The position numbers were made by a program, and so were the translations under genes. Shown one piece after another: positions 1-44,800 of a stretch of 64,000 bases of DNA. How positions within the stretch are numbered: the first letter of the stretch is position 1; every line of letters starts with the position of its first letter. The stretch spans positions 1,798,001 through 1,862,000 of the forward strand of contig NZ_NSDJ01000001.1 in NCBI RefSeq assembly GCF_003610915.1, read 5' to 3'. Source of the stretch: Rahnella variigena (GTDB lineage: Bacteria > Pseudomonadota > Gammaproteobacteria > Enterobacterales > Enterobacteriaceae). The notes below the pieces were generated by a model. The model did not search any database and was not told the origin of the DNA. It worked only from the letters and a program-made list of their open reading frames with translations.

Positions 1-356
1 TTCTAACTGGTAGAAGGCAATACCGTTATCCCCACAGGGGAGTAAAATGTATGATAACTAGTTTCAAAAAAAATGCAAGAATTGTAACCCATAAGCCTTA
101 GACCTTATTCCACAGGAATCAAAACCAATGGATAAATTCAGTTTCGCTGATTAACTAAATTATTTCAGGTATCGGCTTGTTCCAGTATCACCTTCTGGTA
201 CATGCCCTACTCTCAAATTGGATTTCATTCAGAACATCGCAAATATTCCCTCTCGAAGGCTAATGCCCTGCCTTCTGACCGTGGGTCAAAAATAACTTAG
301 TCAAGCAAATGCCCGAAAGTCATAAAATTTAGCGTAATAAAAGATTTATAGTTAAA
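1..356. other. Left non-coding stretch of the satellite
   Basis: I see no credible gene here. The stretch lies beyond the 3' end of the alpha gene, on the side where P4 carries crr and then its att site. I searched it by eye for a copy of the ssrA 3' end (the core expected at the outer junction) and found none, so the left boundary of the element is probably outside the window. Confidence 0.5.
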
Positions 357-464
357 ACTAGTCACACTGTTCACTTTTGCATTTTTTGCATTTAATTTCA
401 TATTGTTAGGTGGTGCTTGGTTTATTCCTAACTATCCATAACTCATCACTTGAAAGTGACCAGT
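357..464. repeat. crr-like iteron cluster
   Basis: Contains ACTGTTCAC at 366-374, a perfect reverse complement of the GTGAACAGT iteron found upstream in the element at 4809-4817 and 4884-4892. It is directly preceded by the degenerate ACTAGTCAC at 357-365. GTGACCAGT (one mismatch) lies at 456-464 and a weaker copy at 441-449. In phage P4 the alpha protein binds such iterons at two separate cis sites, ori and crr, on opposite sides of the alpha operon. Position and sequence both fit crr. Confidence 0.6.
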
Positions 465-481
465 CGCCATTTCAGGGATAA

Positions 482-505
482 AAAAACCGGCCTGAGCCGG
501 TTTTA
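482..505 (-). terminator. Rho-independent terminator of the alpha operon
   Basis: Read on the minus strand, AAAACCGGCT and AGCCGGTTTT-type arms with a short loop are followed by a run of seven T. It starts about 10 bases past the alpha stop codon. Confidence 0.8.
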
Positions 506-514
506 ATGTGAACG

Positions 515-2845
515 CTAAGGTATGCCGCACTTCGGTAGCCAATCCGCCTCGGAGTCTTCACTTAATATCAGGTTGGTTTGCATCCCCTGATTGGTCTTAC
601 GCTTCAAAAGCTCAATCTCATATTCTCTCAGCGTTTGCGGCACGCCCCGACCAAAGGCCGTCAGGCTCATAGGGCGCTGATGCCCTCGCGCCTCCATAAA
701 AGACAGGTATGCGTGATAGAGATACTTGCGCGGGTTAGCCGGAATAATGTTGGCGTTGCCAATATAAAGGCCGTTTGGTGTGCTGACAGCGAGCAGGTAA
801 CCGCAGAAATCTACCAACGGATCGGCACTGCGTTTTATTTCCAGTGCTTCATCGGAATTCTGCTGTTGCTGTAACAGCTCGCGTGCTTCATTAGGAACGG
901 CAAAGCGTTGCATCAGGTGGCGAACGATGACGGCCAATTCCTGACCTATTTTCTCTATCAGTTGTGGATCTCGTTCATTCGTGGGTATCACCTCGGGGAA
1001 CGTGATGATCACGCGCCTACGCGAGACACCGCCGCTGCGGTCACTGAACTGCATTGGATTATTGTTCACTGCCAGAATAACCGCCGGAATATGTGTTGAA
1101 TAAGCATCACGATATTTCGGGTCAATCGCGACTGCATCGCCGCCGGTGATTGCCTTAATCCCTGCACCGTCACCGCTCCACTTCTCCTGGTCGGGTAACA
1201 CAATCAATGAATATCCCACCACAGAAGCACGCTCACGTGCGGATTCCAAAGTCTCAATGCTTGCGGAAGTGGTGTTGTCTTCTCCCGCTAGCATGCGCGC
1301 TATGGCTGCCATGACGCTTTTACCGCTGCCGCCGGGTCCTGTCACTTCAAGGAACAATTGCCAGTCATACCGGTTCGCCAGAACCATGAAAAGCGCCGCG
1401 AGAATGCGCTCTTGCTTATCGCTTTGTTGGTTTGCCGCCCGCGTCAGCCATTGCCAGAAGTTAGGGGCATGCTCTGCAAGGTTTTCACCGGCTTTAGGTT
1501 GTGTGTAATCAACACTGTTTACGGTTCGCAGCCAGTTGTTTGGGCTGTGGGGACTAAAATGTCCTGTGGTGGTATCAAATACCCCATTGCGGAACCCTAT
1601 CAATCTTCTCGCTGGTTTCCCTGTTTGAGGCACCATCAGCTTCAAGGTATCAATAATCCCGCTAATACCAGGTGCAGAGAAGGGCGCGCGGATTTTTTGA
1701 AATAAAGCGGCGATCTCTCGGCTAAGAATGCCGTGGGGCAATACTTGCCACGCGCCATTCTCATAGCGGCAGAGGTCTTCACCCATCAGCGGTACCGCTA
1801 ACCGTTGTTCATAATGGGTTATTAATAGTTCCGCTTTCTCGCTTGCGCTCATGGATTTAAGGTCTGCGTCACTGACCGTATCGAAAGGACTCTGTGGGGA
1901 TTGCTGAGTAAAGGCGCGAAGCTGTTTCAGCGTATTGTCACGACCTTCCTGCATGAATACATCGTTCCAGTCACCGGCGACCAAGGGGAGCGTAACCTTT
2001 CCGCTGACCAGATTTGCGGCTTCTTTCGCTTTCTTCTGTCCTGTGCCGTTCTCATCATTATCTGCCGCCATAAGCAGCAAGGTGTCAGGGTATTTCTCAC
2101 GCAGGCACTCAGCCAGATGAGGGAAGTTATTGGCACTCAGTGCTACATACACGGTTTCGCCCGTCAGCGCATGTATTGTCAGACCGGTTGCATAGCCTTC
2201 TGCCATCCAGATAACAGTGTTGTCGCTCCCTTCAAAATGATGAGCGGAGCCGGTAACCTGCCCACCCGCAAGCATGCGTTTTTCTCCCGACACGTTAATG
2301 AGCTGGGTGTTGACCAGGTTGCCTGACAAATCATAAAGCGGAATGATCAGGTCACCCGCCGCGAAATCTACGCCGCCCACGCGCAGGCCGCTGCCATGCA
2401 ACGTTAGCACTTCCTTATCAACCCAGCCTTTTTTCTCCAGATAGGCATTCCCTGCCGCTTTGCGGGCGGCATTCACCAGCGCTTTCGCCTGACCGGCTGC
2501 CTTCTGGCGGGCATCGTCTTTTTGCTGTTGTGCAGCGGCCTCGTCGTGATGAACTGGAAGAGGCAGAGCCTCTCCCAGAATCTCAGCCACCTTCACGGCG
2601 GCTTCTTTCGTAGTGATATCCAGTGTTTTAGCAACCAGATTTAATCCGTCACCGGCACCGCAATGGTTGCATATCCAGGTGCCTCTTCCTGCCTGATTAT
2701 CGAAACGAAAGCGGTCTTTGCCCCCGCAAACGGGGCAGGCTGAATGATGCCCGTGAGGGGCAACGGTTATACCCAGCGCGGGCAGAAGCTGAGGCCAGCG
2801 CCCTGTCGCGGCGCTCACGGTGTTTTGAACAATCATTTGTGTCAT
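515..2845 (-). CDS. P4-type alpha protein: DNA primase-helicase and origin-binding protein
   Basis: Replication initiator of P4-family satellites, combining primase, 3'-5' helicase and iteron binding. At 776 residues it is almost the same length as P4 alpha (777). An N-terminal zinc finger uses Cys37, Cys40, Cys59 and Cys62. A Toprim-type primase core follows, with the acidic Glu at 216 (MAEGYAT) and DND near 262-264. A superfamily-3 helicase has Walker A GPGGSGKS at 503-510, a Walker B-like LIVLPD near 547-552 and motif C AVNNNP near 592-597. The C-terminal part is expected to bind ori/crr. The ATG has an AGAGG ribosome site. It is the last gene of a leftward operon and looks intact. Confidence 0.95.
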   Translation of the reverse strand: MTQMIVQNTVSAATGRWPQLLPALGITVAPHGHHSACPVCGGKDRFRFDNQAGRGTWICNHCGAGDGLNLVAKTLDITTKEAAVKVAEILGEALPLPVHHDEAAAQQQKDDARQKAAGQAKALVNAARKAAGNAYLEKKGWVDKEVLTLHGSGLRVGGVDFAAGDLIIPLYDLSGNLVNTQLINVSGEKRMLAGGQVTGSAHHFEGSDNTVIWMAEGYATGLTIHALTGETVYVALSANNFPHLAECLREKYPDTLLLMAADNDENGTGQKKAKEAANLVSGKVTLPLVAGDWNDVFMQEGRDNTLKQLRAFTQQSPQSPFDTVSDADLKSMSASEKAELLITHYEQRLAVPLMGEDLCRYENGAWQVLPHGILSREIAALFQKIRAPFSAPGISGIIDTLKLMVPQTGKPARRLIGFRNGVFDTTTGHFSPHSPNNWLRTVNSVDYTQPKAGENLAEHAPNFWQWLTRAANQQSDKQERILAALFMVLANRYDWQLFLEVTGPGGSGKSVMAAIARMLAGEDNTTSASIETLESARERASVVGYSLIVLPDQEKWSGDGAGIKAITGGDAVAIDPKYRDAYSTHIPAVILAVNNNPMQFSDRSGGVSRRRVIITFPEVIPTNERDPQLIEKIGQELAVIVRHLMQRFAVPNEARELLQQQQNSDEALEIKRSADPLVDFCGYLLAVSTPNGLYIGNANIIPANPRKYLYHAYLSFMEARGHQRPMSLTAFGRGVPQTLREYEIELLKRKTNQGMQTNLILSEDSEADWLPKCGIP

Positions 2846-2856
2846 GTGCGCCTCTG

Positions 2857-3198
2857 TTAGTGCAGCGTGGTTTCAGGAGTGGTGTGAAGACAAGGCCGGA
2901 ACAGCTCGTCCATCATGGATTCTCCCAGCTGTGTCAGGCGGGGTTGCGCTACCAGAATATCGGGCTGCACCATATCGCGGAGCATGGCGCAGGCGATGTC
3001 CATACCCAGCTTTGCGCCGTGCTGGCGGACGTAGTAACTTTCGACTTCCTTCGCGATGGTCATTTGCAGTTCATCAAGCGAGTAGCCGGTTTCAACGCCG
3101 TAGGCGGTACAGGCATCGAGATAAGCCTGTGCCAGGGCGCGCCGGTAGAGGGCTGTGAGCACTTCAACCGGCAGGCAGGATTGCTGAGTCGTATTCAT
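2857..3198 (-). CDS. Cnr-like copy-number regulator (P4 Orf106 / DUF5375 type)
   Basis: A 113-residue, mostly helical protein immediately upstream of alpha, separated by 11 bases. In P4 this place is held by cnr, whose 106-residue product binds alpha and limits satellite copy number. The size and the N-terminal pattern (LPVEVLTALYRRAL) fit my recollection of that family, but I cannot run a profile. The start ATG overlaps the stop of the upstream gene by four bases (ATGA), so the two are translationally coupled. Confidence 0.55.
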   Translation of the reverse strand: MNTTQQSCLPVEVLTALYRRALAQAYLDACTAYGVETGYSLDELQMTIAKEVESYYVRQHGAKLGMDIACAMLRDMVQPDILVAQPRLTQLGESMMDELFRPCLHTTPETTLH

Positions 3199-3458
3199 TC
3201 GTAGACATCCTCCATTTGCGTTTTTATGGCGGTCTCGCAGGTGTCTACCACTTTGCCAAGCTGGTCAGTCAGCAGCGCAACAACGGAGGCCATGGAATTC
3301 AGCTGATCGCCGCTGGGTACATGCCCGAAGGTGTCCTGTGTATCAAGCATGTCGAGGAACATCACGCCGACGTTGTGCGCGTGTTGTAGGCGCAGGAAAT
3401 CAGCATGCGGAATAGGGTAATGGGTGTTGGGGAAATAGAAGGAGGCGAGCTTATTCAT
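3195..3458 (-). CDS. Small satellite protein of unknown function (87 aa)
   Basis: I chose the internal ATG at 3458 (MNKLASFYF) because an AGGAGG site precedes it by five bases and it overlaps the stop of the Icd-like gene as ATGA. A longer frame upstream has no ribosome site. The protein is soluble, with no motif I recognise. Four-base overlaps on both sides show that it is part of the tightly packed early operon between the immunity region and alpha. P4 has small ORFs and kil in this interval, but I see no convincing match. Confidence 0.6.
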   Translation of the reverse strand: MNKLASFYFPNTHYPIPHADFLRLQHAHNVGVMFLDMLDTQDTFGHVPSGDQLNSMASVVALLTDQLGKVVDTCETAIKTQMEDVYE

Positions 3459-3979
3459 GCGGCCTCCTGAGCGGGCAGGCGACCGGCAAAGCACAGCACA
3501 TAGTCGCGGGCAAACTGGCGACGGGCAGAATGTTCATTGTCAGCGGCGGAGCGCAGCATACAAATCGGCGCTTTAGGTTCAGCACGGCGAACGGCGGCGA
3601 ACAGGAACGTAAATTTAGGATGTAAGGATGCGAGGGCAGTAGCCAAAATATTGGCCTCCATAGTTAGCTGGTTACAGCTACCACCGAAGTTTCCACGCTT
3701 ATGGGTGGTAGCCCAGACGGGGGTGGAAATACCGGTAACTATGTAAACCGGCCAGCCCGAAGGCTGCCCCGCCTGAGCCACCATTGCTTGATGAGCACAG
3801 CGGTTAAGAAACCACTGAGCAGATAACAGGTGCGCTAAGGCCGCGACATAAAAAAACACGCAAGGCGCGTGTTGTGTCGCCATAGTTAAACTCGGGTTTC
3901 CACGCCCGGCTGCCGATTTTGCGGCAGCACAAAAACTATAGAGCAGGGGCTCGCCAGAGAAAAGCCTTTTTTGAATCAT
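3455..3979 (-). CDS. Icd/Ash-like protein overlapping the immunity RNA
   Basis: A 174-residue product of the type annotated in many enterobacterial prophages as 'host cell division inhibitor Icd-like' or Ash family. The shared phrases are GRGNPSL, WATTHKRGNFGG, LHPKFTFLFAAVRR and the C-terminal FAGRLP. The ATG at 3979 has AAGGAG nine bases upstream. The conserved middle of the frame coincides with strongly structured RNA (see the ncRNA at 3653-3775). Its conservation may therefore reflect the RNA as much as the protein, and whether a protein is made is uncertain. P1 icd overlaps the c4 RNA in the same way. Confidence 0.6.
   Translation of the reverse strand: MIQKRLFSGEPLLYSFCAAAKSAAGRGNPSLTMATQHAPCVFFYVAALAHLLSAQWFLNRCAHQAMVAQAGQPSGWPVYIVTGISTPVWATTHKRGNFGGSCNQLTMEANILATALASLHPKFTFLFAAVRRAEPKAPICMLRSAADNEHSARRQFARDYVLCFAGRLPAQEAA
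3653..3775 (-). ncRNA. C4/CI-type antisense RNA candidate (immunity)
   Basis: On the minus strand a CAGCC-UUCG-GGCUG hairpin (3753-3766) precedes two mutually exclusive pairings. TTTCCAC/GTGGAAA arms lie at 3723-3729 and 3690-3696. The GCTACCACC/GGTGGTAGC arms at 3704-3712 and 3677-3685 interlock with them. TAACTA/TAGTTA near 3735-3740 and 3661-3666 give further pairing. P4 CI RNA and P1/P7 C4 RNA are processed antisense RNAs of this architecture that stop expression of the downstream operon. Exact processed ends cannot be read from sequence. Confidence 0.55.
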
Positions 3980-3992
3980 TAGCCTTTTCTCC

Positions 3993-4223
3993 TTAGCAAT
4001 CGGTCAGGACTTGATCGGACTGCTGCGGATTTGATCGGAAGTGTGAATCATCCTCAGAACTAACGCTTTCGGCTGTCACGGATAACACGCCCAGGGTATT
4101 GCTGGTAAATGCAGGCAAAGGGTTCTTTCTCCCGCAGGCGGCAGCCATCAGGCCTTCAGCCAGATAGGCCGCCTCTTGTGTATTGAGCTGGATATTATGA
4201 TGACCGACAGACAGAGAAATCAT
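3993..4223 (-). CDS. Small satellite protein of unknown function (76 aa)
   Basis: Second gene of the leftward operon. Its ATG overlaps the alpA-like stop by four bases, and it ends 13 bases before the Icd-like start. The first 35 residues (ISLSVGHHNIQLNTQEAAYLAEGL) look like a short folded unit and the rest is polar and probably disordered. I do not recognise the family. Translational coupling to the AlpA-like regulator suggests a regulatory or accessory role, which is inference only. Confidence 0.5.
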   Translation of the reverse strand: MISLSVGHHNIQLNTQEAAYLAEGLMAAACGRKNPLPAFTSNTLGVLSVTAESVSSEDDSHFRSNPQQSDQVLTDC

Positions 4224-4480
4224 TGCATTGTCTCCTGAGCGCGTGCGGCGATGCGGTCATTCATCCAGCTCTCAATCTCGGAGGCCAGCCAGGCCACATT
4301 CTTGCCACCGAGAGAAATCTGGGCAGGAAATTGCTGACGGCTGATTAAGTCGTACAGGGTTGAGCGGGACAGGCCGGTGGTGTGGATCACTTCAGGCAGT
4401 CGCATAAAGCGATCGCGTGGGTACGCGGGTGGCATAACAGGGGCAGAAGACGGGGGCGTATTTTGAGCAGTGGAAAGCAT
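4220..4480 (-). CDS. AlpA/Vis-type helix-turn-helix regulator
   Basis: An 86-residue DNA-binding protein. After a Pro-rich tail comes the typical AlpA core: RLPEVIHTTGLSRSTLYDLI, then FPAQISLGGKNVAW and a C-terminal SEIESWMNDRI. In P4 the homologue Vis is both a transcriptional regulator and the excisionase partner of Int. The ATG is preceded by GAGGTAG. It is the first gene of the leftward operon and faces the iteron/origin region, so autoregulation there is likely. Confidence 0.85.
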   Translation of the reverse strand: MLSTAQNTPPSSAPVMPPAYPRDRFMRLPEVIHTTGLSRSTLYDLISRQQFPAQISLGGKNVAWLASEIESWMNDRIAARAQETMQ

Positions 4481-4649
4481 TGTGCTACCTCATATTTGTA
4501 TCCGGCTGGACGCGACCAGTACCGGCGGTTTCGTTAAGTAGCCCTCTATTTTGAGAATATTTTTGCGTTTGGCAACAAGGTCTTGCGCTCAAATCCCTTG
4601 AAAAAAAATGCTTGTTTTTTCAGATAATACGAGGCGGCGTGAGACCAAC

Positions 4650-4679
4650 TGCCTACAGTTGCCTACAAATGCCTCCAGT
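4650..4679. repeat. Three tandem 10-bp repeats
   Basis: TGCCTACAGT, TGCCTACAAA and TGCCTCCAGT follow one another without a gap. The period of ten places them on one face of the helix, as expected for a multimeric regulator site. They lie about 170 bases upstream of the alpA-like start and about 120 bases before the first ori iteron. Confidence 0.6.
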
Positions 4680-4798
4680 GACATGCTGGTTATTTACCAA
4701 ACAATGATTGAGTGGTTTTGGTTATTAATAAACTCATTTCTAATAGGAAAAAAAGATTAATTTATTTTTGGCTAGCCAGAAAAAGGGCTTTTGTAGAA

Positions 4799-4902
4799 GA
4801 GAACAGTAGTGAACAGTGAGTGAATACCTAGATGTTAGGTGTTCACTACTTAACTTAATGATTTTACTACTTTATATTTGAAAGTGAACAGTGGTGAATA
4901 GT
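4799..4902. repeat. P4-type replication origin iterons
   Basis: GTGAACAGT occurs perfectly at 4809-4817 and 4884-4892. GAGAACAGT (4799-4807) and GTGAATAGT (4894-4902) each differ by one base. The inverted half GTTCAC lies at 4841-4846, and a degenerate copy starts at 4820. The spacing within pairs is about ten bases. The stretch between is AT-rich (4847-4883), suitable for unwinding. The whole 4481-5047 gap holds no gene. It is the regulatory core between the two opposed operons. Confidence 0.75.
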
Positions 4903-5047
4903 ATTTATAGAAATCTAAACTCTCTTCACTTGTGTTCTTTACCTTCCGGCCCGTTGTACCAGCGCTGACCAAACGCCATCAAATAGAAATGTTGTGCCAG
5001 CCTCCCCACAATACCCTCACATTGACAACACATTGCTGAGGTATGCC

Positions 5048-5833
5048 ATGAAACCCGATTCAACCAAAACCGTCGAAGCCGTTATCCAGGACTTTCTTCA
5101 GGTCAAAGCCGGTCACAACGAAAAACCATCATCAGGAAACGCTGAAGGCGATATCCAACACTTTGAGCAGGCCAAAGCGGTCTTTGCGAAGAAAAAGCAG
5201 GTACTTGATGAAATTGAAAGTTCGATTGCGCGATGCGCCCAGGAAAAAGAAACGGCGAACAGCGAAATTAAAGAGAATGAAGTTAGCTGGCGTTCACGTT
5301 TTCGCAAGTCACGCGGGATTATGACCGACGAGCTCAAGAACGCGCACAGTCAGCGGGCAGTTCAGCAGGGATTAGTCAAAGAGTTTGATGACCTGATTGA
5401 GGAATTAAATGTCGAAAAGCAGTCGGCAATGTTGGGGTGTGCCAGTGCGGGGCAGAAGTTGATTAGTGCACACCGCAGCGCACTAAATGCCTATGCTGAC
5501 CATCAGTGGCGACTGGCGATCAATAATCTCAGTCCAGCGCTAGTTCGTGCGGTAAAGCTGAAAGTGCTGGCGTTATCCAACGTCAGTTATCAGGAAACAC
5601 AAATGGGTCACTATGTTGAGCCCGCTAAAATTATCAGCAGTGAAATTGGGAGCGCGCTTGTCGGTGCGGCTCGCATAGGGCAGTTCAAGATGGATGCAGA
5701 ACCAGTGCTGGAGAAAATAGGGATATATTCCCCTGCGTTGCCTGGCGTCGATGAAGCGCTATTACAAAGTCCTATAAAAAGGGAGTTACTTGCACGTAAG
5801 CTGGCAGAGCGTGCTGCTTCAAAGAAGGAGTAA
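5048..5833 (+). CDS. Sid-like capsid size determination protein
   Basis: In P4, Sid forms an external cage that forces helper P2 capsid protein into small T=4 shells that fit only satellite DNA. This 261-residue protein (P4 Sid is 244) begins with a long coiled coil up to about residue 120. It shares recognisable positions with Sid: WR..FR...G...DELK, then LV.E.D.L...LN.E, ALVRA, GHYV.PEK-like GHYVEPAK, and a C-terminal EPVL...G. I chose the ATG at 5048 because GAGGT lies five bases upstream. A GTG at 4994 in frame has no ribosome site. It is the first gene of the rightward late unit. Confidence 0.85.
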   Translation: MKPDSTKTVEAVIQDFLQVKAGHNEKPSSGNAEGDIQHFEQAKAVFAKKKQVLDEIESSIARCAQEKETANSEIKENEVSWRSRFRKSRGIMTDELKNAHSQRAVQQGLVKEFDDLIEELNVEKQSAMLGCASAGQKLISAHRSALNAYADHQWRLAINNLSPALVRAVKLKVLALSNVSYQETQMGHYVEPAKIISSEIGSALVGAARIGQFKMDAEPVLEKIGIYSPALPGVDEALLQSPIKRELLARKLAERAASKKE

Positions 5834-5839
5834 CAGCAA

Positions 5840-6016
5840 ATGATGCGCTGCCCGCTTTGCAGCTCTGTTTCTCACATTCGCACAAGCCGTTATATCACCG
5901 AACAGACAAAGGAGGCTTATTATCAGTGCACCAGGCTGGCATGCTCATGCGCATTTAAAACAAATGAAAGTGTCAGTAAAATCGTAAAAAGAGAAAATAT
6001 GAGGCAGAAAATATAA
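5840..6016 (+). CDS. Delta/Ogr-type zinc-finger activator, single domain (58 aa)
   Basis: A short gene six bases after sid, with AAGGAG nine bases before the ATG. The product begins MMRCPLC and has Cys4, Cys7, Cys30 and Cys35 in the Ogr zinc-binding arrangement (CPLC ... YYQC ... ACSC). The conserved HIRTSRYIT and TKEAYYQC phrases lie between. Ogr (P2, 72 aa) and Delta (P4, two such domains) activate late promoters of satellite and helper. Here only one domain is present and it is shorter than Ogr, ending soon after the zinc site. It may be functional like Ogr or be a remnant of a two-domain Delta. Confidence 0.85.
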   Translation: MMRCPLCSSVSHIRTSRYITEQTKEAYYQCTRLACSCAFKTNESVSKIVKRENMRQKI

Positions 6017-6055
6017 ATTTCGGCTCGCTTTCGATTCCCAAAAAATAATCTCAAG

Positions 6056-6083
6056 TGCCGCTTTCGAATAAGGCGGCATTTTT
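6056..6083 (+). terminator. Terminator of the sid-delta unit
   Basis: TGCCGC at 6056-6061 pairs with GCGGCA at 6073-6078, extended by three weaker pairs and followed by five T. It lies 40 bases after the delta-like stop. Confidence 0.75.
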
Positions 6084-6273
6084 CATTAATGCAGTGCAAA
6101 CCGTCCCTCCTTACAGCCTTTTCTCTGGCTAGCCTGTACTTATGAGCCGTGCATGCATAGGGTGCATGGTTTTGCATGCAATGCAAAGCGCTCAAAATGG
6201 CTCAAACCCCTTGCTACACTGGCTTTCAGAGGCTTTACTCCATGCATTAAAACCAGCGAGCTAAGTCAGCTGC

Positions 6274-6312
6274 GGGCAGGCGGGGAGAACTGCGCGCGCG
6301 ATGGTGGTAGTG
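6274..6312. other. P2/P4-type cos packaging site (candidate)
   Basis: The sequence GGGCAGGCGGGGAGAACTG, followed by CGCGCGCGATGGTGGT, closely resembles the P2-family cohesive-end region as I remember it (GGCGAGGCGGGGAAAGCAC, then TGCGCGC and a GGTGGT block). The middle is two bases shorter here. Its place, after the late operon and before the cargo region next to int, is where P4 has cos. The remaining bases between 6084 and 6273 show no gene. Confidence 0.6.
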
Positions 6313-6323
6313 TACTACTTGGG

Positions 6324-7664
6324 TTATTTCTTAGCCTGCCATAGAAAGTAAAAATCGTTTGAGCGTGCTTCATTTTTACCCTTTAGGGTCTTACTATAAT
6401 CAATTAGGGTGCTTACAACAGCGGCTCCCCCACCTACCGCTGCAAGAAGATGGCTAATATCGTGTGGCAATATGCCAGAATATAACCCAAATGAAACCGT
6501 ACCCGTACCTATTATTAATTTGTCTTTAATTCCACTCCTTGTCTTTTCTTTCCAATCTTTAACTTTCTTCTCAATGATATGTATTTCTGGAAGTATTTGA
6601 TCTCTAAAAGCATCGGATATATCTTTTTGATTCCAGTCAGCGCTCTTCCTAAACATTGTGTTTATCTTGTCTCTATATACATTAAAAGCTTCTTCTTCTC
6701 TGTTTCTTAGATCTAGAATATATTCTAAGTTTCTGCTTTTAATAGAAGGCAAATAATGTTTTAAAGCTTGGTTGAATGAAGTTGAATTGGCCTTGTAAAC
6801 TGGGTTGTTTAATTTACTTGCTATATCCATTTGAATCTGATTATCGCATAAGTATGATGTTCCATAGAAAGCTGAATGCCATTCTTGATCTGAAAGATCC
6901 TTTATTAGAGGGGTTATTATCAATCTTAAAATATGCTCGTTTTTTATTTCATTTTTTGTGAATACATACGGCATTTCTTTGGTGCATAGATGATCAATGT
7001 AGTCGCCAAATGGCTCCATAAGATGAAAGTATGAAACACCATGTTCTATAAACTCTGTGGAGCTCTTTATTTCAAAAAACGGTTTTTTATCATGCGTTAA
7101 TGATAGTGTGACCTCGCAAGTATCCAGCAAAAAATCATGTAGTAAATTATAAAGTTTATCCTCTTTTTGTTGTATTTTTTTAGCAATTGGCTCAGCAAGA
7201 TTAATACGATGATTGTTACAAAGTGAAACCATGTTCTGGGCGTATTTAATTATCCCTCTTTTAATTAGTGGTTTTAGATAGATGTAATTATATATCCCAG
7301 ATATTATTTCATGTCTTGCTGTTAAGTTAATGCCCCCACGTCCCCTTAGAACAATCTCTTCGAACGGGTTCTGAATATAAACTTCATCTGAATATAATGA
7401 GGAAAATGATGCAAGTTGATCAAGTTTGTTTAATCTACACTCTGAAGCAGCACATGGGAAACTACCACCACTTAAAGATGAATTTGCAATAAATGAAAAA
7501 TTCTCATTAGGTTTACCGTCATATCTAAAATAGTATCTTATGACTAAGTTTAAGGTTTCTGCAAATTCATAGATAAAATCTTTATCTGCGTTCAATAATG
7601 TTCCATCAATATTACCATTGACACCTGCTTTTATAACATCTTCAAATTCATCAATAAAATCCAT
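6324..7664 (-). CDS. Unrecognised 446-aa cargo protein of the satellite
   Basis: I do not recognise this protein. It is soluble for about 380 residues, rich in Asn, Ile, Tyr and charged residues, with a helical, coiled-coil-prone stretch near 330-385 (LRNREEEAFNVYRDKI, KKVKDWKEK). Two hydrophobic segments follow (LIIGTGTVSFGLYSG and HLLAAVGGGAAVVSTLI, about 385-421) and then a polar tail. No nuclease, NTPase or methylase motif is evident. The ATG has AAGGGG seven bases upstream. The gene is visibly AT-rich against its neighbours, a sign of recent acquisition. It lies between int and cos, the position of cargo and anti-phage genes in P4-like satellites, on the same strand as int with 68 bases between. 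Confidence 0.85.
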   Translation of the reverse strand: MDFIDEFEDVIKAGVNGNIDGTLLNADKDFIYEFAETLNLVIRYYFRYDGKPNENFSFIANSSLSGGSFPCAASECRLNKLDQLASFSSLYSDEVYIQNPFEEIVLRGRGGINLTARHEIISGIYNYIYLKPLIKRGIIKYAQNMVSLCNNHRINLAEPIAKKIQQKEDKLYNLLHDFLLDTCEVTLSLTHDKKPFFEIKSSTEFIEHGVSYFHLMEPFGDYIDHLCTKEMPYVFTKNEIKNEHILRLIITPLIKDLSDQEWHSAFYGTSYLCDNQIQMDIASKLNNPVYKANSTSFNQALKHYLPSIKSRNLEYILDLRNREEEAFNVYRDKINTMFRKSADWNQKDISDAFRDQILPEIHIIEKKVKDWKEKTRSGIKDKLIIGTGTVSFGLYSGILPHDISHLLAAVGGGAAVVSTLIDYSKTLKGKNEARSNDFYFLWQAKK

Positions 7665-7732
7665 TTATAACCCCTTGAAGAAAAAAATTTAATTACGTAT
7701 TGTCAAAGTTAGACAACTAACGGATGTTAGTT

Positions 7733-8920
7733 TTAAACATAAATCTCATTTCCCCACCACGTCATAAGCTTTTTCCTTTGCTCAATATATGTAGAACGGT
7801 TGTAGGCTTTCCTAACTTCATTTTTATCACTATGCGCTAAAGCTGCCTCTATTACGTCAGAGTTGAATCCTGCTTCATTCATGGCTGTGCTAGCGATAGA
7901 ACGTAGGCCGTGGGCAACGAGCTTTCCCCCATACCCGATACGTTTCAATGCTGCATTCGCAGTTTGGCTGTTCATAGGCTTACGTGGGTCATTGCGGCTA
8001 GGGAAAACGTACTGACGATTACCACTTATTGGACGCATGATTTCCAACAACTCTAAGGCTTGTTCCGACAACGGGACTATATGGTCGCGCTTTGCTTTCA
8101 TACGTTCTGCCGGAATACACCACTGCTTATTCTCTATATCGATCTCTGACCAGGCTGTTGCCGATGCTTCGGCAGGGCGTATTAACGTCAGTAACTGCCA
8201 TTCAAGCAGGCAGCGGGTTGGTATTGATAAATTGCTCATCGAAATGGTGCGCATTAGCTTGGGCAGTTCTTCGGGGCGTATTGTGGGCATGTGCTGCTTC
8301 TTCGGGCGTTCAAAAGCGTTACCGATTCCTGAAGCAGGGTTGGCCTCAATCAACCCAACATTGACGGCATAAATCATTATCTCATTTATGCGTTGCACCA
8401 AACGCCTGACAGTCTCCAATGCTCCCCGCGCTTTAATTGGTTCTAAAACTTGAATCAGGGTGCGAGCCTTTAGCTCCTGTACAGGAACATTTTCAATACT
8501 GGGCAGGATGTCTTTCTCAATAGAACGCCAGATATCTTTAGCGTGGTCAGCGCTGACGTGACTTTGTTTCAGCTCGAACCATTTACGTGCCACATTTACG
8601 AAAATACTTTCCTGAGCAATTTGGAGCTTCTCTGCTTCTTCACCAGCTCTTGCTTGCGGGTCAATCCCTCTGACTAACATCGCAAGCTTTTCTGCACGCA
8701 CTTCTCTGGCATCAGCCAGTGAAAGAGCAGGATAAGCCCCGAGGCTAATCATGGTGCGTTTTGAAGTGCCAGGCACCTGGTAGCGAAAGCGCCAAATTTT
8801 CTTGCCGGTGGTTTTGACCAGGAGAAAGAGTCCGTCACCGTCATGCAATGTGAGATCTTTATCGGTGGCTTTGGCTTTTTGTACTTCGGTGTGGGTGAGG
8901 GGGCGTGTAGTCCGCGCCAT
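7733..8920 (-). CDS. P4-family tyrosine integrase
   Basis: Site-specific recombinase of 395 residues that inserted the element at ssrA. The N-terminal arm-binding domain (DUF4102 type) has LTLHDGDGLFLLV and WRFRYQ, then LGAYPALSLADAR. The catalytic domain shows the first Arg in LIRPAEA, the His-x-x-Arg motif HGLR, the later His in ALAHSD and the nucleophile Tyr in KAYNRS. I chose the ATG at 8920 (MARTTRPL), which gives the family's usual start and has AGGGA upstream. A longer frame to 8989 runs through the operator repeats. It abuts the att junction, as usual. Confidence 0.95.
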   Translation of the reverse strand: MARTTRPLTHTEVQKAKATDKDLTLHDGDGLFLLVKTTGKKIWRFRYQVPGTSKRTMISLGAYPALSLADAREVRAEKLAMLVRGIDPQARAGEEAEKLQIAQESIFVNVARKWFELKQSHVSADHAKDIWRSIEKDILPSIENVPVQELKARTLIQVLEPIKARGALETVRRLVQRINEIMIYAVNVGLIEANPASGIGNAFERPKKQHMPTIRPEELPKLMRTISMSNLSIPTRCLLEWQLLTLIRPAEASATAWSEIDIENKQWCIPAERMKAKRDHIVPLSEQALELLEIMRPISGNRQYVFPSRNDPRKPMNSQTANAALKRIGYGGKLVAHGLRSIASTAMNEAGFNSDVIEAALAHSDKNEVRKAYNRSTYIEQRKKLMTWWGNEIYV

Positions 8921-8936
8921 GCAAGGATCTTCCCTA

Positions 8937-8990
8937 ATTGGTATACGTTTATTAGTATATATCTTAGCGTATACCAATTCGTATACCAAT
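8937..8990. promoter_or_regulatory. Inverted and direct 11-bp repeats upstream of int
   Basis: CGTATACCAAT occurs at 8968-8978 and 8980-8990 (12-base period), with a perfect inverted copy ATTGGTATACG at 8937-8947. A degenerate GTATATA lies between. They sit directly upstream of the int start and within 180 bases of the att core. They are good candidates for Int arm-type or AlpA/Vis sites that also control int expression. Confidence 0.6.
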
Positions 8991-9033
8991 AGACGCCGGT
9001 TTCAGGCGGATCTTCTCGGACTTCTACAGACAC

Positions 9034-9070
9034 AAAAAAGCCCGCAAACCTAGAAGGGATGCGGGCTTTC
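9034..9070 (-). terminator. Terminator downstream of ssrA
   Basis: On the minus strand AAGCCCGC (from 9061-9068) pairs with GCGGGCTT (9038-9045) and is followed by a T-rich run. It lies 43 bases past the tmRNA 3' end, and therefore on the satellite side of the junction. Confidence 0.8.
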
Positions 9071-9112
9071 AGGACTTCTCCGGACTTATCTGGTAATAAC
9101 CGGATCATTATT

Positions 9113-9476
9113 TGGTGGAGCTGGGGGGATTTGAACCCCCGTCCGAAATTACTACACCGTCGGCACTACATGCTTAGTCCAATCTTTACATTCGCCGGTT
9201 AGCTGCGGATGGACACGCCACTAACAAACTATCCTGATTGGGTTTAACGCTTTCACCCCAGGCAAGGTGTCCACGCGATCTCTTTTGGGTTTGACCTCTC
9301 TTGATCCCCGTCCTAAGAGCGGAGGCTAGGGAGAGAGGGCTCTAAGCAGGGTATTAAGCTGCTAGGGCGTAGTTTTCGTCGTTTGCGACTATTTTTTTGC
9401 GGCTTTTTACGAGGCAAACCGCCCCTCGGCATGCTCCTTGGGCTTCGCAAATCCCGTCGAATCCAGAATCAGCCCC
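9113..9476 (-). ncRNA. ssrA: tmRNA (10Sa RNA)
   Basis: Rescues stalled ribosomes by acting as tRNA-Ala and then as mRNA. On the minus strand it starts GGGGCTGATTCTGG and ends with the T-arm GGTTCAAATCCCCC and AGCTCCACCA, giving 364 bases against 363 in E. coli. The tag reading frame lies at 9354-9386, from the resume codon GCA to TAA, and encodes ANDENYALAA. The 3' end is the integration target of the satellite and has been kept intact. smpB, its protein partner, lies just upstream. Confidence 0.97.
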
Positions 9477-9525
9477 AAGTACTATTACGCAGTATACCAG
9501 AAAAAGAACACGCTAAGCCAGAGAC

Positions 9526-10008
9526 TTAGCGGTTTGAATTCTTCATGATACGTGCTTTGTCTACTTTCCATTCACGATCTTTAATGTCATCGCGCTTGTC
9601 GTGCTCTTTCTTACCTTTAGCCAGTCCGATCTTCACTTTTGACCAGGCATTTTTCCAGTACAAGGAAAGCGCCACGACGGTGTAACCATCACGACTGACT
9701 TTTCCGAAAAGCGTTTCTAATTCTCGCTTCTTCAGCAGTAATTTTCTCGTACGGGTAGGGTCGCAGACGATATGACTCGACGCCACGTTAAGAGGTTGAA
9801 TGGTTGCGCCAAATAAATAGGCTTCACCGTCGCGGAATGTGACATAGCTGTCAGAGATGTTTGCTTTACCAGCGCGCATCGATTTGACTTCCCATCCCTG
9901 CAAAGCAAGCCCCGCCTCGATTTCATCTTCAATGAAATATTCATGGCGAGCGCGTTTGTTCATCGCGATAGTCGCGGAACCGGGTTTATGTGCTTTTTTC
10001 TTTGTCAT
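9526..10008 (-). CDS. smpB: tmRNA-binding protein SmpB
   Basis: A small oligonucleotide-binding-fold protein that carries tmRNA into stalled ribosomes. At 160 residues it matches the family. It contains the conserved [17 protein letters not shown] and LQGWEVKS N-terminal part and a basic tail ([16 protein letters not shown]) that enters the decoding centre. I chose ATG 10008 (MTKKKAHK) by homology. The frame is open to 10053 but the extra residues are not family-like. It is co-oriented with ssrA and divergent from ratA. Confidence 0.97.
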
Positions 10009-43299: not shown

Positions 43300-43923
43300 A
43301 TGAAAAATATCATTTTCGCGAATATTCGTGCAGCACTCGCTTGCCCAATTTTTATGCTTTCATTATTAATATCCCTTAACGTGCAGGCACAGGATCATCC
43401 TGGTAATTCAACGGTAGAGAATGTTTCCTCGCAGGAAAATAATGAAGGCTTATGGGATTCATTCACCAATAATATTGCTGAAACGTGGAATACACCGCAG
43501 CAGCAAGATCTCTTTCTTCCGGTATTAACTCGTCATAACCGGCATACACACAGCAAAAAACAAATCGAAGGATATAACGAACATCCGTGGGGCGGAGGTT
43601 ACGGTATTTCGCGTTATGATGAGAAAGGAAACTGGCACGGCATTTATGCGATGGCCTTTAAAGATTCCTTTAATAAATGGGAGCCTGTTGCCGGTTACGC
43701 TTATGAAAAGATATGGCAGCCGCTTGATGATAAAGAATTCCGCTTAGGGGCAGGGTACATTACTGCCGTTTCAGCCCGTGACAATTATGATTACATTCCT
43801 TTTCCCATGGTGCTGCCGCTGGTATCAGCAGGCTATTCAAGGCTGACGTTCCAGACAACCTACGTGCCGGGAAACAACAGCAAAGGGAACGTCCTGTTCG
43901 GCTGGTTCCGTTTTCAGTTTTAA
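43300..43923 (+). CDS. pagP: Lipid A palmitoyltransferase PagP, copy 1
   Basis: Outer-membrane beta-barrel enzyme that moves palmitate from phospholipid to lipid A, lowering permeability to cationic peptides. The signal peptide ends around NVQAQD (residue 31). The family residues are present: His in LTRHNR, Asp-Ser in AFKDSFNKWEP, and the [16 protein letters not shown] stretch. The C-terminal aromatic GWFRFQF fits a barrel end. The protein is 207 residues. A second copy lies 265 bases downstream. Confidence 0.9.
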   Translation: MKNIIFANIRAALACPIFMLSLLISLNVQAQDHPGNSTVENVSSQENNEGLWDSFTNNIAETWNTPQQQDLFLPVLTRHNRHTHSKKQIEGYNEHPWGGGYGISRYDEKGNWHGIYAMAFKDSFNKWEPVAGYAYEKIWQPLDDKEFRLGAGYITAVSARDNYDYIPFPMVLPLVSAGYSRLTFQTTYVPGNNSKGNVLFGWFRFQF

Positions 43924-44188: not shown

Positions 44189-44800
44189 ATGATGATTAAG
44201 AAAGTAATCGGTTGTGCAGGTATGACACTAACGCTGGGTATGAGCTCATCCGTGTGGGCAAATAACAGCGGCATTAATCCGGTCAGCGATCCGGATACCA
44301 TCCAGTATAAATCGCTGGCTGCGAACGTGTGGTCAGACTTTACGGATAAAGTCTCAACGACATGGAATGATTCTGATTCACAGGATCTGTATCTGCCGGT
44401 CATCACCTGGCATAACCGTCTGACATACGATAAAGAGAAAACCGATCGTTATAATGAACGTCCGTGGGGCGGGGGTTATGGTATTTCCCGCTACGATGAA
44501 AAAGGTAACTGGAACGGCATTTATTTTATGGCGTTTAAAGATTCCCATAATAAATGGGAACCGATCGGCGGTTATGGCTGGGAAAAAATATGGACACCTG
44601 CAGAAGATAAAAAATTTCGGTTAGGTTTAGGTTATACCGCGGCGGTGACGGCGCGTGACGACTATAACTATATTCCTATTCCGATCGTGTTACCGCTGGC
44701 TTCCATCGGCTATAACAAACTGACCTTTCAGGCGACGTATATTCCGGGAACCTACAATAACGGCAACGTTTTCTTTGCCTGGCTGCGGTATCAGTTCTGA
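44189..44800 (+). CDS. pagP: Lipid A palmitoyltransferase PagP, copy 2
   Basis: Paralogue of the preceding gene, 203 residues, with its own signal peptide ending at SSVWA (residue 25). The catalytic His (ITWHNR) and Asp-Ser ([10 protein letters not shown]) are present. The barrel body is highly similar to copy 1, while the signal peptides and the 20 residues after them differ. Separate promoter-like elements suggest independent control. The intervening 43924-44188 holds no gene. Confidence 0.9.

Follow-up and report, generated by a model that had tools for sequence, protein, structure and literature searches.

What is the function of a gene that lies directly behind the integrase of a P4-type satellite and belongs to no named family? 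The question is raised by a 64,000-nucleotide stretch of the Rahnella variigena genome (contig NZ_NSDJ01000001.1, positions 1,798,001 to 1,862,000 of the forward strand; hereafter the window), in which such a gene, here called the cargo gene, encodes a protein of 446 amino acids. An earlier note, made from the letters of the DNA alone, had proposed it as a possible one-gene defence system with a membrane-anchored C-terminus. Judged by its location, its mobility and its company, including the contents of sister satellites, the cargo gene probably defends against phage in some way, and its protein is a promising candidate for an immune protein of a new, one-gene kind, in which a putative metal site would be combined with a hydrophobic tail.

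The conserved cargo gene and its protein

The features of the gene and its protein are given below by window position. Conservation refers to two alignments: A1, which holds the window protein and 62 of its 98 homologues, near-duplicates and fragments having been left out by hand, and A5, which holds 24 sequences including the most distant members.

6324 to 7664, minus strand: cargo gene, an open reading frame (ORF) with ATG start, encoding the 446-amino acid protein of an unnamed family
7671 to 7676, minus strand: ribosome-site-like AAGGGG, 6 nt ahead of the ATG of the cargo gene
6630 to 7517, minus strand: residues 50-345, alpha/beta core, weakly PIN-like by fold (AlphaFold2 (AF2) predicted local distance difference test score (pLDDT) 83.7, predicted template modelling score 0.81; VIA rows)
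7437 to 7454, minus strand: C71 to C76 (C-x4-C), first half of a putative zinc site (conservation in A1)
7209 to 7220, minus strand: C149-x2-H152, second half of the putative zinc site (conservation in A1 and A5)
6402 to 6518, minus strand: residues 383-421, glycine-rich hydrophobic hairpin (hydropathy; sub-threshold PF20721 match in the relative P0121)
6336 to 6347, minus strand: residues 440-443, conserved FLW[QK] tail (conservation in A1)

The cargo ORF is a genuine gene, on which purifying selection acts. As the earlier note had described it, this is a single AT-rich gene with its own ribosome site, the AAGGGG being in place and the GC content amounting to 33.0%, compared to 47.3% in the integrase gene (7733-8989), which is the upstream neighbour on the same strand, and 51.2% in the whole window. 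A promoter scan showed no site immediately ahead of the gene, and the upstream sequence is unconserved among the five satellites compared. At E ≤ 1e-3, a protein search returned the window's own protein and 98 others, 99 rows in all, and it is these 98 homologues, together with a ratio of nonsynonymous to synonymous substitution rates (dN/dS) of about 0.1, which argue that the ORF did not arise by chance. The NG86 estimate of dN/dS was 0.10 between the window and the Yersinia locus L001 (dS 1.98, with synonymous sites near saturation) and 0.11 between the loci L002 and L008 (dS 0.52), while dS was saturated in the remaining 13 of the 15 cargo pairs.

The family is unnamed, rare, patchily spread and proteobacterial. 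None of the 99 rows carries a precomputed Pfam domain; a profile search with the family yielded 105 rows, and seven distant members, used as queries for a search further outward, yielded 16, one of them with a precomputed PF20721 label. Sources of the homologues include Serratia, Enterobacter, Pectobacterium, Methylomonas, Stutzerimonas, Hydrogenophaga and Parahaliea. In genome samples that included the window's own genome each time, matches were few at each taxonomic level: 2 among 295 genomes for the order, 1 among 369 for the class and 2 among 392 for the bacterial family.

In the protein, a soluble alpha/beta body is followed by a helical linker, then by a hydrophobic hairpin rich in glycine, and a conserved YFLW tail comes last. 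Within the body, the four-ligand motif expected of a zinc protein is conserved, with C71 and C149 present in all 63 rows of A1, C76 in 61, and position 152 occupied by histidine in 59 rows and cysteine in four; in A5 the balance at this last position is 16 cysteines to eight histidines. The C-x4-C / C-x2-[HC] pattern is a probable zinc site, from which we infer that the cargo protein binds metal.

At the C-terminus, the two hydrophobic segments of the earlier note proved to form a conserved hairpin, spanning approximately residues 383-399 and 403-421 with a short turn between them, after which come a charged stretch and Y-F-L-W. Hydropathy peaks in the final 80 residues of 59 of the 62 full-length A1 rows, and in the window protein the top 19-residue Kyte-Doolittle mean is 1.76, at 403. 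Conservation is high at G411 and G412 (61/63 each) and L399 (60/63), and F440, L441 and W442 are present in 62 of the 63 rows, the remaining row having a gap.

The fold of the core was assessed by comparing it with the PDB. When the core alone was used in VIA, PIN-type rows were obtained with HARP ranked at the top, which is suggestive of a PIN-like fold. The aspartate that ends the first PIN strand is found at neither position 60 nor 61 in the 63 rows of A1 and the 24 of A5, these positions having been placed by sequence comparison with HARP alone. Other acidic residues are frequent in A1 (E102 60/63, D256 61/63, D274 61/63) and in the deeper A5 (E102 14/24, D256 21/24, D274 17/24). Comparison with HARP by hhalign gave a probability of 0.2% (the HARP profile consisting of two sequences), and PIN is absent among the best 25 of the 32 Pfam families that the 63 members matched at E ≤ 1. 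With the whole model, Foldseek found no match at E ≤ 1e-3 in the PDB or BFVD, and VIA returned mostly four-helix-bundle rows across residues 1-138. Two other assignments were rejected. A cyclodipeptide synthase or aminoacyl-tRNA-synthetase-like reading was abandoned, as the serines of the ANSS motif vary and a catalytic serine of the cyclodipeptide synthase type is thus unsupported. A resemblance to DUF6236 (PF19749) was dropped after searches in 1 and 185 genomes gave no match; the control was silent too, which makes the result uninformative.

The satellite and its cargo slot

The element around the cargo gene contains the following features.

7733 to 8989, minus strand: P4-type tyrosine integrase (PF00589, E 9.9e-33, and two further domains)
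9113 to 9476, minus strand: transfer-messenger RNA (tmRNA) gene, beside which the satellite is integrated (ARAGORN)
6145 to 6179, no strand assigned: cos-flank-like stretch (blastn), cos itself probably lying just beyond it, towards the cargo gene
5840 to 6016, plus strand: Ogr/Delta-like zinc-finger gene (PF04606, E 6.4e-19)
4994 to 5833, plus strand: Psu-like protein of the satellite (phrog_6165, E 6.8e-57)
4220 to 4480, minus strand: AlpA-type regulator of the satellite (PF05930, E 6.8e-20)
515 to 2845, minus strand: alpha-type primase-helicase of the satellite (PF08273, PF13362, PF08706, PF03288)

Tyrosine integrase, alpha-type primase-helicase, AlpA and Ogr/Delta were all recognised by Pfam, and the element is thereby a P4-like satellite, as the earlier note had held. 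The region between integrase and psu in such elements, with cos, is described as an antiviral hotspot (PMC9122126; PMC8628076). The cargo gene sits behind the P4-type integrase and near the cos-like region, and the slot here, which the earlier note had placed between integrase and cos, runs from the integrase to delta. In a blastn search run with an E limit of 1, the 35-bp stretch at 6145-6179 matched 18 phage records (best E 6e-4), a number that counts some duplicates and includes 186 and P2; in phage 186, about 94 bases separate the matched place from the record's end. Since that end is presumably cos, the cos region, cut site included, would lie near 6145-6179. No Pfam family matched the Psu-like protein at 0.01. 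In the sister satellite L012, a PF07455 Psu is found besides a 27%-identical counterpart of the Psu-like protein, whose position thus corresponds to another gene rather than to the true Psu of L012; by this comparison, the satellite in the window may be without a true psu.

Homologues were compared at ten distinct loci with DNA, the window included. At six of these, the cargo gene follows a P4-type integrase immediately and on the same strand: the window, L001 from Yersinia, L002 from Pantoea, L008 and L010 from IMG/VR, and L012 from a genome of the same bacterial family. The contigs of L001 and L010 end soon after the cargo gene. The same slot is therefore used in other satellites, and the contrary outcome named in the earlier note, homologues found only outside mobile elements, did not hold. 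Where both sides of the gene can be seen, as is so at four loci (window, L002, L008 and L012), no other ORF of at least 100 amino acids is present between the cargo gene and the delta/psu genes, in agreement with a single-gene cargo. At L010, the integrase is split into two frames (9247-9981) directly before an intact cargo gene.

The cargo and integrase histories differ. Cargo proteins are 42.3 to 89.0% identical across all 15 pairs, and between the window and L001 the identity is 68.4% for the cargo and 92.2% for the integrases. Behind integrases that are 93.1% identical, L008 and L012 carry cargo proteins of 43.7% identity, whereas L002 and L008 share 89.0% in the cargo and 85.7% in the integrase, so that alleles of one cargo family change behind related integrases.

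To the left, the element extends beyond the window. A direct-repeat search inside window positions 1-9700 gave no attachment (att) pair, but about 2.2 kb left of the window the tmRNA 3' end and its terminator recur in degenerate form (L013:4802-4906 compared to window 9028-9134). This repeat likely marks the left attachment site, and the satellite would then measure about 11.3 kb. Inside the element so bounded, left of the alpha gene and outside the window by approximately 17 to 1642 bases, lies an ORF of 541 amino acids on the minus strand (L013:5359-6984), whose residues 43-540 match residues 1-498 of a 499-residue chain (PDB 9ioa/9nlv) with 908 bits. As 9NLV is described as a DRT9 hexamer (PMC12483538), the satellite probably carries one known defence type, a DRT9-type reverse transcriptase, in addition to the cargo gene of unknown type. 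Rfam at gathering scores showed no RNA family near this ORF.

The contents of the slot in related satellites were assessed from the window integrase, which at E ≤ 1e-150 has matches in 58 of 246 genomes, its own genome included. Sixteen regions with an integrase identity of at least 67% were taken, and exclusion of L047, which has no satellite layout, left 15 sister slots. Two more genomes reached 67%, namely G672, which is L012 and was counted with the family, and G777, a partial integrase match, which was left out. The far side of L058 and L061 shows no satellite gene, the contig of L061 ending there. Six of the 15 slots held a PADLOC match of at least 150 bits:

L048: Dsr2
L054: Old
L055: AbiU
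L057: PDC-M68B, a PADLOC candidate
L059: PDC-S06, a PADLOC candidate
L061: Hydrolase and Hydrolase-TM

The L051 slot additionally matched HEC-07 with 107 bits, and weaker matches pointed to SIR2-type proteins in L050 and L058. Ten hand-chosen window proteins served as controls, none of which reached 150 bits, and at 100 bits the counts were seven of 15 slots and one of ten controls (RecN); both controls and thresholds were picked by hand once the results were seen. These slot contents agree with the published descriptions of the P4 hotspot (PMC9122126; PMC8628076), one of which reports the cloning of P4's own gene set together with 18 other systems, seven giving robust resistance (PMC9122126).

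Several sister slots hold proteins with no PADLOC match at 1e-5. Unrecognised single slot proteins in L049 (5602-6951, 449 amino acids), L052 (5569-6963, 464 amino acids) and L056 (1374-3617, 747 amino acids) are further candidates, L053 (4354-7095) and L062 (4296-7037) hold 913-residue proteins with visibly similar N-termini, and L060 (1439-3952) holds an 837-residue protein with SIR2_2 and nSTAND NTPase domains by Pfam. Elsewhere in the window, two similar secreted-type proteins, PagP-like by eye, are encoded in tandem at 43300-43923 and 44189-44800.

Possible modes of action

Taken as a whole statement, the reading that we prefer is a tentative one, namely that the gene is a single-gene cargo of the abortive-infection type, in which a membrane-acting hairpin is controlled by a zinc-bearing body. 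A soluble, zinc-stabilised alpha/beta domain would keep the protein inactive and respond to an infection cue, after which the C-terminal glycine-rich hairpin would insert into and disturb the inner membrane, thereby halting phage growth; the trigger and the order of events are conjecture. This reading is supported by the C-terminal hydropathy maximum, by the conservation of G411, G412, L399 and FLW, and by the exchange of histidine and cysteine at the fourth ligand, and the membrane-acting part has a precedent in PdpSau (PMC10127798). A defensive role in general is supported by the DRT9-type reverse transcriptase in the same satellite and by the Gilliamella locus L006, where the homologue adjoins a RadC-like gene, with a methyltransferase, two restriction-endonuclease-type genes (McrBC-like by eye) and Vsr within 9 kb.

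Several results nevertheless weigh against the preferred reading. C-terminal hydropathy reaches 1.6 in only 31 of the 62 full-length A1 rows, for which reason a transmembrane nature of the segments can be called plausible and no stronger, and as the AF2 pLDDT is below 50 over residues 396-435, the hairpin may not span the membrane at all. Four of the ten loci (L003, L004, L005 and L006) lie outside any satellite slot, and the first three show no defence neighbour among the neighbours checked: the L003 homologue adjoins a transposase with an rve domain, and L004 and L005 have no informative neighbours among those checked. Regarding the sister slots, PADLOC matches at E ≤ 1e-5 were obtained for nine of the 15 slots but also for four of the ten housekeeping controls, and 150 bits is quoted because the laxer threshold is not discriminating. 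The remaining six slots hold no protein with a match at 1e-5, so the slot content is not all known defence.

A more elaborate form of this reading is rather doubtful. The protein would here be a one-protein immune receptor of a new kind, whose rewired, zinc-bearing PIN-like sensor has lost ordinary nuclease chemistry and drives a glycine-rich membrane hairpin with a conserved aromatic tail, and in this host the satellite would spread the receptor and pair it with DRT9, a defence that synthesises DNA, in an element of about 11 kb.

The main rival, which we regard as unlikely, is that the protein is a split PIN-like nuclease, either tethered to the membrane or auto-inhibited. Its core would then cleave RNA or incoming DNA, and the tail would only position the core at the membrane. 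Precedents for such an arrangement are described for DS-3 (PMC13092281) and SNIPE (PMC13190303), but DS-3 needs its catalytic residues (PMC13092281), and the cargo protein is without the first PIN aspartate. It is distinctly improbable that the gene belongs to satellite biology rather than to general defence, tuning the exploitation of helper phages or excluding rival satellites or P2-type prophages. Such a role would fit the position directly beside int in six P4-type loci and the dependence of P4-type elements on helper phages (PMC9122126), but the homologues of Gilliamella (L006), Hydrogenophaga (L005) and Thalassolituus (L003) are without adjacent satellite genes by eye (4-21 kb), and the slot otherwise holds variable cargo. 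A stand-alone toxin or addiction gene that retains the satellite in the cell, in a role comparable to gop of P4, is very improbable, for although the hydrophobic glycine-rich tail could be toxic and gop-beta-cII, which fills this slot in P4, acts against phage (PMC9122126), no second gene of at least 100 amino acids accompanies the cargo gene up to delta/psu in the window, L002, L008 or L012.

Should the cargo gene indeed be defensive, the family would add to bacterial immunity an unnamed group without a Pfam or PADLOC model, and offer a compact one-gene system for studying the control of a membrane hairpin by a soluble sensor. The six of 15 slots without a PADLOC match at 1e-5 suggest, moreover, that tmRNA-linked satellites of the P4 type outside E. 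coli carry in their slot families that would escape surveys centred on E. coli, though one of the six (L060) has SIR2 and STAND domains.

Relation to known families and systems

The cargo protein gave no significant match in PADLOC, NCBIfam, PHROGs, Pfam or the PDB sequences, and the metabolic or structural phage family that the earlier note had named as contrary evidence thus did not appear in these libraries. The absence of a known defence family was likewise borne out, as PADLOC-DB 2.0.0 (from 2023) contains 0 families matching the protein at E ≤ 1; with the 63 members, three families of this database gave isolated weak matches, one member each (best E 0.0013). A PDB profile search up to E 10 yielded, among the best 60 of 84 chains, a top E of 0.019 and mostly capsid chains at one short helix. 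No cargo-protein match was found by tblastn in phage and plasmid collections, nor any cargo-gene match in 20,395 E. coli records by near and distant blastn, which covers the DNA level only, and megablast of the E. coli collection gave no match to the integrase. No paper naming the family was found, although a nameless family is hard to search for and supplements were not covered, so that absence from print is not established.

The HARP minimal RNase P (PIN_5, PF08745) is the best-ranked PDB fold for the core and shares with it an aspartate pair 18 apart, but there is no sequence-profile similarity, the first aspartate is missing in the cargo protein, and the lengths differ (446 compared to about 190 residues). 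The C-terminal region recalls the C19orf12-like family (PF20721), with a sub-threshold match in the relative P0121 (residues 383-443, E 1.9e-5, 25 bits compared to the curated cut-off of 30 bits) and weak matches in 11 of the 63 members (best E 0.015), none of them in the window's own protein. C19orf12 itself is a membrane protein rich in glycine.

Among described defence systems, DS-3 (DefensePredictor, PMC13092281) resembles the cargo protein in being a single protein with PIN-like halves, a long insertion and no antitoxin partner; unlike DS-3, which was compared by its description only, the cargo protein has a zinc-type motif and a hydrophobic tail. SNIPE (PMC13190303), a membrane-bound nuclease, is likewise a single defence protein at the cell membrane and serves only as an analogy for the nuclease alternative. 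PdpSau of S. aureus prophages differs from the cargo protein in its N-terminal membrane helix and other architecture and offers a functional analogy only, but it too is a mobile-element-encoded, predicted membrane-anchored single protein, and it aborts infection with changes in membrane polarity (PMC10127798). Finally, although the window protein has no PADLOC match and its gene is absent from the E. coli records at the DNA level, it occupies the same slot, beside the integrase and the presumed cos, as the P4 hotspot cargo described by Rousset et al. 2022 (HAD hydrolase with transmembrane protein, single-gene TIR protein, gop-beta-cII; PMC9122126), which also comes in small cassettes and, in some cases, with a predicted membrane component.
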